From: Desulfobacteraceae bacterium
Lineage (GTDB): Bacteria > Desulfobacterota > Desulfobacteria > Desulfobacterales > SKZT01
Assembly: GCA_011389745.1 (NCBI GenBank)
Contig: JAABTQ010000007.1
Span: 1 to 64,000, forward strand
Direction of reading: 5' to 3'
Length of the DNA: 64,000 bases
Below the pieces are notes generated by a model that worked only from the letters and a program-made list of their open reading frames with translations, was not told the origin of the DNA and made no database searches. A program made the translations under genes and the position numbers. Below, one piece after another: positions 786-18,315 of this stretch. Numbering within the stretch: position 1 is the first letter of the stretch; each line of letters begins with the position of its first letter.

Positions 786-950
786 GGATGTCCGTCATTC
801 TGAGGAGGCCGACACCGTAATCTGTTGTTTGGCAGACAATCATTGGCCGACGAAGAATCTGCTTTCCTGAACACTGACACCTGAACACTTTTTTTTCCTG
901 CCAACTTGCAATCAAAGATTCTTCGGTCGCTTCGCTCCCTCAGAATGACA
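786..950. repeat. Dispersed repeat, inverted pair (MITE-like)
   Basis: The left end reads GTCATTCTGAGGAGGCCGAC (794-813) followed by CGACGAAGAATCT (849-861). The right end carries the inverse: AGATTCTTCGGTCG (916-929), then CCTCAGAATGACA (938-950). The block is therefore a nested inverted repeat of about 157 bases. Related copies occur at about 4263, 5250, 16213 and 17778. Short reverse-strand ORFs here are translations of the repeat, not genes. Confidence 0.75.
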
Positions 951-4262: not shown

Positions 4263-4296
4263 GCGACCGAAGAATCTTCGGTAGAGGCCGGCACGG
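4263..4296. repeat. Dispersed repeat fragment
   Basis: GCGACCGAAGAATCTTCGG followed by AGGCCGGCACGG resembles the inner part of the repeat family. It contains the 8-bp inverted repeat ACCGAAGA-A-TCTTCGGT (4266-4282). It sits just beyond the stop codon of the phosphoesterase gene. Confidence 0.55.
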
Positions 4297-5249: not shown

Positions 5250-5287
5250 TTAAAGTCCGTCATTCTGAAGAGACCGACACCGTGCCT
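5250..5287. repeat. Dispersed repeat fragment forming the 3' end of a gene
   Basis: GTCCGTCATTCTGAAGAGAC followed by CGACACCGT nearly repeats bases 790-817 (two G-to-A differences). It supplies the stop codon and the last residues (CRSLQNDGL) of the VanZ-like gene on the reverse strand. Confidence 0.65.
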
Positions 5288-6506
5288 TGTTGACCACCTG
5301 ATGATGATACAGCCGGTAAAATATTGCTCCGAGACAACCCCCAAGGGTGTTAAAAATCAAGTCCAAAGACTGTGAACTTCTTGAGGGTATCCAGGCTTGT
5401 GCCAGTTCGATAATCAGGCTGATCATGAAGCAGATGAAAACGGTCAGTAGAATACCGTGCTTTTCATAAAACCCGCCGAGATGGAACATAAGAGCGCAGA
5501 AAAAAAAACCAGGAAAAATAAAACCCGCCAAATTCATCACCATATCCTGAACCAATTGACGATCCAGGCGACCTTCATTCCATGGGGCTACAAGGATTTC
5601 TTTTTTGATAATTTTCACCCGGGATGGAATTACCAGATGATGGTCTTTTGAGCCATGGTCAAATGCTTTCAAACCGGTTTTTTCATCAAAGGTATAAAAA
5701 ACCTTAGGATAAATATTTCTGGGAAAGGAAAAATTATGTTTCCGGGAGTATTGATTAAAATGAGAAGATGTATCCCCGGAATTTAGAGTGTGTTCATAAA
5801 TTGCAAGGCCATAGATATCCCCTGTCCAGGAATGTCTCCCATATGGGGAATTACCAAGTACAAGCACTGCATCCGATGTCTCATTGGGTATCTTTAACAC
5901 CAATCGTCCATTGGATACACGCATGTGACCGTTAATGTAAACAAACGTTCCGCTTTCACCAGAAATGATGTTGATAAAAGAATTGCTTTTTGGTGGTAAT
6001 GCATTTTGAACGCCGACTTTTGGTATCTTTTTTTTTCCGTCGTAATCATCGCCGTTCATGACGATGAGTGAGGAACGCCATTGGCCGATAATAAGCTGAT
6101 CTGAATCTTTGCCTGCGTGGATACATAATAAAATTTTAAAGCGATCGTTTATGGAATCGTCCGGTCGTACAGCCAACTCTATAGAAAGGCCGCCTGTTGG
6201 TTCCTGGCTGCTTTCCCTTGATGGAAATGCGGTATGTGAATAAGCAATGCCGTAGTGACCAAATCGGATGCCATCCTCCCCGTCGATCCAGGCCACATTA
6301 TTGGAAAGAGAAAAGTTCTTAAATTGAAGTCCGAAAAAAACAATCAACAAAAGCATGCCCAGATTGATCCAAACGAGCATACTAAAAGAAAATGGAAGGT
6401 TGCGGTCTGATATGCTCACGGCATTTGATCGGATGATTTCTGTTTGGAAAAATTTAAAAAACCATATTTTTTTAAATGATATATCAAAACCATGGTTTTG
6501 TGTCAA
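5250..6506 (-). CDS. LamG-like lectin domain fused to VanZ-like membrane domain
   Basis: The 418-residue protein begins with a cytoplasmic basic stretch and a TM helix (about residues 42-60). An exported region follows with beta-sandwich character typical of concanavalin A/LamG domains (LSIELAVRPDDS, TFVYINGHMRVSNGRL, WTGDIYGLAIYEHTL). After it come TM helices holding the VanZ-type motif (IIELAQAWIPSRSSQSLDLI, FNTLGG). VanZ itself gives low-level teicoplanin resistance; the role of LamG-VanZ fusions is unknown. The start is uncertain: TTG at 6506 is the longest option, and the first ATG is at 6380, at the TM helix. The last 13 residues come from a dispersed repeat, so the native C-terminus was probably replaced. 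Confidence 0.75.
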   Translation of the reverse strand: MTQNHGFDISFKKIWFFKFFQTEIIRSNAVSISDRNLPFSFSMLVWINLGMLLLIVFFGLQFKNFSLSNNVAWIDGEDGIRFGHYGIAYSHTAFPSRESSQEPTGGLSIELAVRPDDSINDRFKILLCIHAGKDSDQLIIGQWRSSLIVMNGDDYDGKKKIPKVGVQNALPPKSNSFINIISGESGTFVYINGHMRVSNGRLVLKIPNETSDAVLVLGNSPYGRHSWTGDIYGLAIYEHTLNSGDTSSHFNQYSRKHNFSFPRNIYPKVFYTFDEKTGLKAFDHGSKDHHLVIPSRVKIIKKEILVAPWNEGRLDRQLVQDMVMNLAGFIFPGFFFCALMFHLGGFYEKHGILLTVFICFMISLIIELAQAWIPSRSSQSLDLIFNTLGGCLGAIFYRLYHHQVVNKARCRSLQNDGL

Positions 6507-16180: not shown

Positions 16181-16212
16181 TTAAAACAGGTTTCACGTGT
16201 TCAGTGCCGACT

Positions 16213-16318
16213 TGGATCAAGAGATTCTTCGGTCGCTGCACTCCCTCAGAATGACAATTGCCATGCCCCTGTCATTCTGAGGAGGCCGGCACTACAATCG
16301 CTCCCTCAGAATGACAGG
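16213..16318. repeat. Dispersed repeat copies with 15-bp hairpin
   Basis: One unit runs GATTCTTCGGTCGC to TCAGAATGACA (16223-16256). A second block is a perfect 15-bp inverted repeat, CCTGTCATTCTGAGG (16268-16282) against CCTCAGAATGACAGG (16304-16318), with a 21-base loop. It follows the NifX-like gene and could also act as a weak transcription stop. Confidence 0.75.
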
Positions 16319-16524
16319 CTTAAGGTTACTCCCGAACCTTTTTCCTTTGTTTTTTTAAAAATAAATCTTGACACTCCCTGAGATTCCTTTATTTCCCTTT
16401 TGATCGTATTGGCTGAATCCCTGAGGGATTCCATTTCCGGAAAGTTTCTCAGTCCGTATTGTTTAACTACTTGAAATGACAGCAACGTTGTAATCAGCAT
16501 AGCACCTGAACGCCAATTTTCCAC
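16306..16524 (-). CDS. Doubtful small hypothetical ORF
   Basis: The 72-codon frame opens with GTG 16524 and runs into the dispersed repeat, which supplies its last codons and stop. It has a short hydrophobic stretch (AMLITTLLSFQVV) and a charged middle (NTIKREIKESQG). I do not recognise it. It is divergent from the methyltransferase gene 35 bases away. It may be a truncated gene or no gene. Confidence 0.25.
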   Translation of the reverse strand: MENWRSGAMLITTLLSFQVVKQYGLRNFPEMESLRDSANTIKREIKESQGVSRFIFKKTKEKGSGVTLSLSF

Positions 16525-16559
16525 ACCTTCAAGGGTTACGATAAGGGAATATCATTCAA

Positions 16560-17729
16560 ATGAAAACAACGCACCAGATTTTTTTCAAAGATGCTCAAAA
16601 AATGGATGATATCGAAAACGAATCCATTGATCTGATGGTTACCTCTCCGCCATATCCCATGGTTGAAATGTGGGATGAAATTTTCACCCGTCAGAATCCA
16701 AAAATATTTAAAGCATTAAATTCCTCGGATGGGGTAATGGCATTTGAACTGATGCATCAAATCCTTGATCGGGTATGGGATGAAGTCCGGCGGGTTTTGA
16801 AACCCGGGGCGGTCGCCTGTATCAATATCGGTGACGCTACAAGGACAATCAATAGCCGATTTTCTCTGTTTGCCAATCACACAAGGATCCAGTCCTATAT
16901 GCTTGAGCTTGGATTTTCGGCGCTGCCGTGTATTTTGTGGCGAAAGCAGACCAATGCACCCAATAAATTTATGGGATCAGGAATGCTTCCTCCCGGTGCA
17001 TACGTCACTCTTGAGCATGAATACATTCTGATTTTTAGGAAAGGTAACAAAAGGCTTTTTAAATCTGATGAGGAAAAACAAATCCGCCGGAAAAGCGCTT
17101 ATTTCTGGGAAGAACGAAACCATTGGTTTTCCGATGTCTGGATGGACTTAAAAGGAACCCGCCAGGAACTTTCGGGCAATAACGCCCGAGATAGAAACGC
17201 GGCATTTCCCTTTGAACTGGCTTATCGTCTTATTTGCATGTTTTCGGTCAAACAAGATCGTGTGCTTGATCCGTTTCTGGGAATCGGTACCTCAATGCAT
17301 GGTGCCATGGCTGCCGGAAGGAATTTTCTGGGTATCGACATAGATCCCAATCTGAAGTCGACCATTTTTTCAAAGATGGAAAATATTATAGAATTTTCAA
17401 ACAGAAAAATCATAGATCGGCTTCAGAACCATCTTAATTTTGTGGGAAATCGAATCCGGGAAAAAGGCCCTTTCAAACATACCAATCAACCCTACGGCTT
17501 TCCCGTGATGACTTCCCAGGAAAGGGATTTATTGTTAAATTCACCACAGTCATTAGAGAAGATCGGTGAAACTATTTTCATGGTTATTTATTCCGACAGT
17601 GCTCAAGAAGAATTTATTTATGAAAAAGATCATAACGTTACAGATAAGGCTGAAGCAAATACAATTCTTTTACAAAAGCAAGAGCAGAGGAAACAGAGAC
17701 ATTGCCAGATAAAATTGTTTGACAAATGA
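16560..17729 (+). CDS. Orphan DNA methyltransferase, beta-type motif order
   Basis: The 389-residue protein has catalytic motif IV TSPPYPM (residues 28-34) ahead of the AdoMet-binding motif I DPFLGIGTS (237-245), the order of beta-class amino-methyltransferases. The TSPPY form is most frequent among N4-cytosine enzymes, but N6-adenine is possible. A substrate-recognition region probably lies between residues 100 and 215, and a 100-residue charged tail follows the core. No restriction endonuclease gene is adjacent, so it is either solitary (regulatory) or the survivor of a restriction-modification system. Dispersed repeats flank it on both sides. Confidence 0.88.
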   Translation: MKTTHQIFFKDAQKMDDIENESIDLMVTSPPYPMVEMWDEIFTRQNPKIFKALNSSDGVMAFELMHQILDRVWDEVRRVLKPGAVACINIGDATRTINSRFSLFANHTRIQSYMLELGFSALPCILWRKQTNAPNKFMGSGMLPPGAYVTLEHEYILIFRKGNKRLFKSDEEKQIRRKSAYFWEERNHWFSDVWMDLKGTRQELSGNNARDRNAAFPFELAYRLICMFSVKQDRVLDPFLGIGTSMHGAMAAGRNFLGIDIDPNLKSTIFSKMENIIEFSNRKIIDRLQNHLNFVGNRIREKGPFKHTNQPYGFPVMTSQERDLLLNSPQSLEKIGETIFMVIYSDSAQEEFIYEKDHNVTDKAEANTILLQKQEQRKQRHCQIKLFDK

Positions 17730-17777
17730 AACAATTTTTAAGTATTGGGTGTCAGATTTAGAAAATGCGCAAATGAT

Positions 17778-18118
17778 TTGTCATTCTGGAGGAGTAGCAG
17801 GCAGCAGCTTCATGGCTGTAAAAAATATTTTCCAATAAACTGGTTGAAATCCACAGTGACCGAAAATTTCTGGATACAAGTTGGCAGGGAGATGAATAGT
17901 CGAGAATCAAAACAGACTTGACCTGGAAAGTAACTAGTCGGTTCGGGTTGATAGGCGCGAAAGATTCTTCGTCGGCCAATTTTTCTGTGCCAACTAAAAC
18001 AAGCTGTTATTGGCCTCCTCAGAATGACAACGGCAGGAAGCTTGTCATTTTGAGCAATGCGAAAAATCTCCGGTTCCAAGTTGGCACGGATACTGCTCCC
18101 TGCTCCCTGCTCCCTGCT
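17778..18118. repeat. Degenerate dispersed repeats ending in TGCTCCC x3 array
   Basis: Fragments are TTGTCATTCTGGAGGAG (17778-17794), GATTCTTCGTCGGCC (17963-17977), GGCCTCCTCAGAATGACAA (18012-18030) and CTTGTCATTTTGAGCAATGC (18041-18060). A heptamer array TGCTCCC x3 plus TGCT follows (18094-18118). This fills the 418-base gap after the methyltransferase gene. Overlapping short ORFs are repeat translations. Confidence 0.65.
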
Positions 18119-18147
18119 TACTAATCATTCATATAAGGAGAAAAGAA

Positions 18148-18315
18148 ATGAAAGGCTGCGAATCCTGTAAACTCAGAGCACGGTATGATAAAAATCCCAG
18201 ATCCTTTTTAGGCAAATTCTGGAAATGGCACATCCAATGGTGTCCGGGTTGGAAATCCTATGTAAAGTCACTTCCACAGGATGAAAGACGGTCGCTTATC
18301 AAGCGCTATGGATGA
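18148..18315 (+). CDS. Small conserved-looking Cys protein, 55 residues
   Basis: ATG 18148 is preceded by a strong AAGGAG site at nine bases. The product starts MKGCESCKLRARYDKNP, has a Trp-rich centre (FWKWHIQWCPGWKSYVKSLP) and ends LIKRYG. The CxxC pair and third Cys suggest a metal or redox site; the spaced Trp/Lys pattern looks selected. I do not know a function. It is convergent with the RND permease gene, whose stop is 10 bases away. Confidence 0.7.
   Translation: MKGCESCKLRARYDKNPRSFLGKFWKWHIQWCPGWKSYVKSLPQDERRSLIKRYG

Follow-up and report, generated by a model that had tools for sequence, protein, structure and literature searches.

A lineage-restricted, probably mobile intergenic repeat of enlarged TGTC-tagged hairpins in a Desulfobacteraceae genome

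Background

The closest described relatives of the repeat reported here are the CGTC-tagged REPs of Di Nocera, De Gregorio and Rocco (2013; PMC3733652). They have an unpaired CGTC (often TGTC) tag, a stem of 8-9 bp that starts with A-T and T-A pairs, a loop of 4-5 bases (in some cases of other length) and an unpaired 3' tail, mostly CCA. They are intergenic and occur predominantly as head-to-head dimers, often heterodimers, some of them inside longer palindromes; five phyla were listed. No transposase is associated with these repeats, a dedicated one is apparently lacking, and the question of how they spread was left open in 2013 (PMC3733652).

Other described elements invite comparison as well. 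REPINs and RAYT-associated GTAG REPs (PMC3116915, PMC2817692) are non-autonomous; two inverted hairpins stand at a defined spacing, and the pairs are scattered through intergenic DNA. MITEs such as Correia/NEMIS, RUP and ERIC are non-coding intergenic elements of 150-300 bp with terminal inverted repeats, and each can be drawn as one long hairpin. BIMEs are mosaic clusters of REPs, with arrays and hybrids of units.

We analysed 64,000 nucleotides (the window) from the draft genome of a Desulfobacteraceae bacterium (3.6 Mb in 80 contigs, estimated contamination 2.45%), in which a sequence-only reading had proposed a dispersed repeat family. In our preferred explanation, to which we give a probability of roughly 0.72, the repeat is mobile but non-autonomous and restricted to one lineage; its unit is a head-to-head heterodimer, made obligately of two enlarged REP hairpins with the TGTC tag, called A and B. 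The explanation builds on the structure of the unit, the fixed A-B pairing, the intergenic dispersal, the absence from the closest relative, the kinship with a short palindrome and the covariation of that palindrome's stem.

Results

The repeat and its copies

The window holds 12 matches to the core GTCATTCTGAGG with at most two mismatches, against 4.33 (sd 2.23) in shuffled sequence, and none of 100 shuffles reaches 12. Genome-wide, with at most one mismatch, 221 matches were found, compared to four for a reversed-pattern control, so that the proposed repeat family is borne out. Reading about 1 Mb of the genome around GTCATTCTGAGG sites yielded 73 A ends and 61 B ends. Covariance models of the A arm (R1) and the B arm (R2) match at least 97 and at least 92 times, respectively; these counts are lower bounds, as no more than 150 candidates per genome were scored. 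The genome-wide model search that had been suggested for finding copies beyond the window thus does find them. We estimate the number of copies of this scattered, non-coding element at about 90-100. No repeat block matches Rfam, and a literature search by repeat sequence found no paper on it.

Copies of the repeat and associated features in the window
Feature	Position	Strand	Evidence
A arm, 66 bp, of a 156-bp copy	794..859	+	R1 82.4 bits, E 8e-23
Parts of this A arm: tag GTC, stem ATTCT/AGAAT, GA/GA, G-C, GA/GA, GGCC/GGCC	794..859
Spacer between the arms, shorter than in full copies	860..916	+	alignment of 28 copies
B arm, short 33-bp form GTCATTCTGAGGGAGCGAAGCGACCGAAGAATC	917..949	-	R2 44.4 bits
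Remnant, inner end of B arm only, GCGACCGAAGAATC	4263..4276	+	read from the sequence; neither model matches
Truncated or degenerate A arm, overlaps 3' end of VanZ/LamG ORF	5259..5325	+	R1 17.5 bits, E 0.006; direct repeat D2
Right half of a copy, ends in short B arm (16223-16255, minus)	16205..16255	+	R1 and R2 matches; direct repeat D4
45-bp deletion hybrid, first bases of A end joined to last bases of B end	16271..16315	+	R1
DNA methyltransferase gene in repeat-bounded island 16181-18148	16560..17729	+	PF01555, E 7.5e-38; synteny
Full-length copy, 249 bp	17780..18028	-	R2 48.6 bits, R1 80.2 bits
Degenerate B arm of the full-length copy	17780-17869	+
A arm of the full-length copy	17963-18028	-
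25-bp monomer GTCATTTTGAGCAATGCGAAAAATC, compensated stem ATTTT/AAAAT	18044..18068	+	R1 23.4 bits; fold

At least five blocks of the window had been said to share the cores, and for the five that were listed this holds to different degrees. The first is an internally deleted copy with an intact inverted pair (794-949), in which 938-949 is the inverted copy of 794-805; its 33-mer GTCATTCTGAGGGAGCGAAGCGACCGAAGAATC is also present in other families of the phylum. Two more blocks stand, namely 16213-16315, which combines the right half of a copy with the hybrid, and 17778-18068, where a full-length copy whose degenerate B end reads GTCATTCTGGAG is followed by the monomer. At 5250 there is only a truncated A end (one mismatch). 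The block at 4263 falls short, as it lacks the GTCATTCTGAGG core and consists of no more than 14 bp from the inner end of a B arm.

The short copy at 794-949 is accompanied by runs of CCTAACA/CCTAATA-like tandem repeats (765-785 and 960-1012). A similar AAAACCT run lies upstream of a FeMo-Co gene in a species of the same genus (locus L122, 2790-2875).

Architecture of the unit

A full unit of about 235 bp consists of A, a spacer of about 70 bp and B in reverse orientation. Both ends begin with GTCATTCTGAGG, which forms a terminal inverted repeat of 12-13 bp. The A end continues with AGGCC and closes with GGCCGACGAAGAATC after 66 bp (exactly 66 bp in 50 of 57 ends); the B end continues with GAGCGACTCGCAG and closes with CACGGCGACCGAAGAATC after about 91 bp. 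Wherever two ends face each other at a distance of up to 400 bp, one is A and the other is B (29/29 pairs; chance about 1.5e-9). Facing pairs predominate in this genome (29, with 7 back-to-back and 10 head-to-tail) and also in other phyla (36, 10 and 8, respectively).

Many copies have internal deletions, and 53 of 134 ends are solitary. The median identity between copies is 79%. The best pair reaches 94%; its members are adjacent, and this side-by-side duplication is the only pair above 90%. Such divergence means that the spread was not recent, and the element is probably inactive now. Later internal deletion and array formation would account for those ends of the window that are short, hybrid or solitary.

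At one locus elsewhere in the genome (L079, 11487-11936; G000 C4) three A arms stand in tandem with a 108-bp period, followed by one B arm, an instance of array growth. At another (L034, 5752-8575; G000 C12) two dimers flank a small gene pair resembling a PHD/VapB antitoxin and a PIN-domain toxin, together with a sigma-54 type regulator.

Hairpins and kinship with a short palindrome

The consensus folds of A and B are alike: ATTCT pairs with AGAAT, and a GA/GA step, G-C pairs, a second GA/GA step and more G-C pairs follow. The stem is thus 5 bp, a GA/GA mismatch step and G-C pairs, and it opens with A-T and T-A pairs that hardly vary. The loop enclosed by the last conserved pair measures about 34 bases in the A arm and about 60 in the B arm. 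Whole elements fold better than shuffled sequences (z about -3.4), single arms do no better than shuffles under nearest-neighbour rules, and the stems within this genome are conserved without visible covariation. Since the two ends can pair as single strands over at least 12 bp, an entire copy can fold into a single long hairpin, whether as DNA or once transcribed. The sequence-only reading was right to describe nested inverted ends, and in a few copies an additional inverted repeat lies further out.

Other genomes contain a short unit of the form GTC-AT-xyz-GAG-n-GA-z'y'x'-ATC. Six alternative stems occur among these units, their apical hairpins differ greatly, and the loops of the short forms in relatives are small. 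Among units from many phyla whose stems are not ATTCT (not TCT/AGA), 54 of 66 are complementary, where chance would give about 1 in 64. GTC is preceded by T in 113 and by C in 28 of 146 short units from many phyla, and by T in 118 and by C in 20 of 141 ends of our genome. After the stem, C, then T or C, then C is most frequent in the many-phyla units. Short forms from other families match R1 and R2, which ties the enlarged arms to the short family. The A and B arms are, on this evidence, large forms of a short palindrome that carries a TGTC/CGTC tag and occurs in many phyla.

The enlarged form itself is narrowly distributed. Among 390 genomes of the class the extended A arm is present in this one only (0/389 others), and the same-genus and same-family genomes give no match to either arm model. 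Of 395 genomes of the phylum, 47 contain the short unit. The loci that name further phyla are an uneven sample; among the matches listed are Nitrospirae, Bacteroidota, Acidobacteria, Chloroflexi, Omnitrophota, Clostridia, Helicobacter, Paceibacterota and others, in agreement with the earlier remark that similar elements are common in environmental genomes.

Genomic context and the corresponding sites of a sister species

By a crude ORF-based analysis of intergenic position, 87 of 88 clusters lie outside ORFs of at least 120 aa. The neighbours include ordinary conserved families (CoA ligase, metallophosphoesterase, VanZ, a FeMo-Co protein, amidase), which gives no support to the idea that the repeats cluster around poorly conserved genes. 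Of the gaps with an element, 22 of 80 separate convergent genes, compared to 53 of 377 other gaps (p 0.007). Together with the good folding of whole elements, this excess would be expected if the repeat were not mobile at all, being instead an intergenic element with a structural or regulatory role (a 3'-end hairpin or terminator) that selection retains and recombination has multiplied. We consider this very improbable, because half of the elements are found between tandem genes and 14 of 80 between divergent ones, the state of the copies is very variable, with many solitary or deleted ends, and the element is missing from a species of the same genus.

That species (G001) has no copy anywhere in its genome, including the syntenic sites compared. 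Unaligned parts of the syntenic gaps measure 9, 28 and 394 bp there against 192, 280 and 624 bp in our genome. An island of about 2 kb (16181-18148), carrying an N4/N6 DNA methyltransferase gene between repeat blocks, has no counterpart at the syntenic place either: in that species a small ORF comes almost immediately after the FeMo-Co gene. The sister species is only about 76% identical at the DNA level, so the junctions are drawn without base resolution, and at individual sites the difference may reflect loss in the sister species. The sequence-only reading had proposed a comparison of sister strains for empty sites; this comparison with a sister species came out in favour of its view of the element.

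How the element may have spread

On our preferred explanation, some enzyme acting in trans on the ends would have copied the element into new sites. The routes weighed below concern only the mode of spread, and both are compatible with this explanation.

The dimer could have moved as single-stranded DNA by means of a Y1/HUH RAYT (TnpA-REP) transposase, as GTAG REPINs do, the enzyme having since been lost. REP-like hairpins with an unpaired tag, head-to-head dimers and the conserved base ahead of the tag (T in 71-91%) fit the IS200/IS605-REP pathway. So does the outcome of the search for target duplications, another check proposed by the sequence-only reading: the flanks of 28 dimers in our genome show no excess identity at any length from 2 to 12. 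A Y1_Tnp gene is moreover kept in the sister species. However, our genome has no match to Y1_Tnp (PF01797, Y1/RAYT), and in 57 genomes of the phylum the presence of Y1_Tnp shows no association with the repeats: 19 of the 26 genomes rich in repeats have it, as do 21 of the 31 without repeats (p 0.77). Among the Y1 loci fetched from repeat-rich genomes, only that of G300 has a repeat cluster within about 1 kb, and the 2013 survey likewise found no transposase (PMC3733652). We regard this route as unlikely.

Some details of the gene survey may be added. The cluster of G300 (locus L313, 9025-9362; C7) has seven units, and another cluster is found 9 kb away. Y1_Tnp genes occur in the repeat-free genomes G001 (same genus) and G002 (same family), and our repeat-rich genome has none. 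Repeats flanking Y1 genes are not the rule in relatives, G300 being the sole case among the loci examined. We also looked for an autonomous copy, in which A and B would enclose a gene; in three pairs the facing ends are 0.6-2.4 kb apart, but no plausible full-length transposase lies between them. One DDE_Tnp_1 gene is present in our genome.

Alternatively, the dimer may be the interior of a larger miniature transposon whose outer inverted repeat is recognised by a DDE transposase, the hairpins being cargo or an accessory structure. The best case comes from G288, which belongs to another family of the phylum. Its short dimers lie within GAGACCTCTGCGAAAGTC inverted repeats. Almost every pair of facing outer arms covers 138-142 bp, a single one 185 bp. 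In no pair are the arms as close to each other as in an empty palindrome, so that insertion of dimers into pre-existing palindromes is unsupported there. Outside the outer arms the 5-bp flanks of 11 copies, aligned left to right by eye on the outer repeat, which is a weakness, are 76% identical, compared to 52% for shuffled partners. None of 5000 shuffles reaches this value, and the signal appears only at length 5. Outer inverted repeats also exceed the 99% null in 13 of 53 dimers from many phyla, some of them, it should be said, of low complexity. In our genome an outer inverted repeat, GGATTCCGGCCTTCGCCnATTGGCGTcAAGTTAAGG, accompanies a few copies at a fixed distance from about seven ends, about 51 bp outside A and 75 bp outside B, yet only 2 of 28 copies have it on both sides, and these lack a duplication. 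The findings suggest that in at least some lineages the dimers travel inside DDE-type miniature transposons; for our own genome we infer the same only tentatively, and as the mode of its spread this is a possible route, short of even odds.

A broader speculation can be made. Many unrelated miniature transposons of the DDE type might generally carry CGTC/TGTC-tagged REP dimers in their interior and so spread them; each lineage would have its own outer repeat and target duplication around a central hairpin dimer shared across phyla, and the element of the window might be an enlarged, decayed example. We consider this generalization possible but less likely than not. It would be a specific and testable answer to how these repeats move: they ride inside DDE miniature transposons.

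Two further loci of G288 (L372, C15; L367, C8) have dimers inside other, unrelated outer repeats (ATACCAAGTTGC... and AAGCTRTTGCAAAACCT), meaning that several families of outer repeat coexist.

As to the suggested mobile element without its own transposase, the search found no Y1-type transposase and the sister species lacks the element, which supports it; movement is deduced from these patterns rather than observed.

Relation to known repeats

The element resembles CGTC-tagged REPs in its TGTC/CGTC tag, the A-T/T-A start of its stem, the predominance of head-to-head dimers, its intergenic position and the lack of a Y1-type transposase. Its loops of about 34 to 60 bases, compared to 4-5, lead us to class it as a variant rather than a plain CGTC-tagged REP. 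It also differs in that the A-B heterodimer is strict and the extended form occurs in one species among those searched. The short family was seen here in many more phyla than the five of 2013.

With REPINs it shares the traits given above, but the tag is TGTC/CGTC instead of GTAG, the genome has no Y1/RAYT (PF01797) gene, and repeat-flanked Y1 genes are not the rule in relatives. The identification as a GTAG REPIN was therefore rejected. The resemblance to Correia/NEMIS, RUP and ERIC extends to size, terminal inverted repeats (GTCATTCTGAGG at both ends, as in DDE-type MITEs), non-coding nature, intergenic position and the single long hairpin. Unlike these MITEs, it has no target duplication at the inner ends, duplication being seen only outside the outer repeat of G288, and its sub-terminal A and B regions differ. 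A plain MITE was rejected on the target-duplication result for the 28 dimers. Arrays and hybrids of units, such as the three tandem A arms with a B arm, recall BIMEs, from which the element differs by its basic unit, a fixed asymmetric dimer.

This analysis contributes a family spanning many phyla with clear stem covariation, its expansion in one species with an invariant A-B heterodimer, the negative test of association with Y1/RAYT genes, and an outer inverted repeat with a 5-bp target duplication in one relative.

The repeat should also be kept in mind when environmental genomes are annotated, where it can give rise to short false ORFs and to spurious residues at C-termini. In line with the earlier suspicion that such elements are often mis-annotated as protein, the VanZ/LamG ORF of the window (5250-6506) owes its C-terminus, ...KARCRSLQNDGL, to a repeat remnant (5250-5330).
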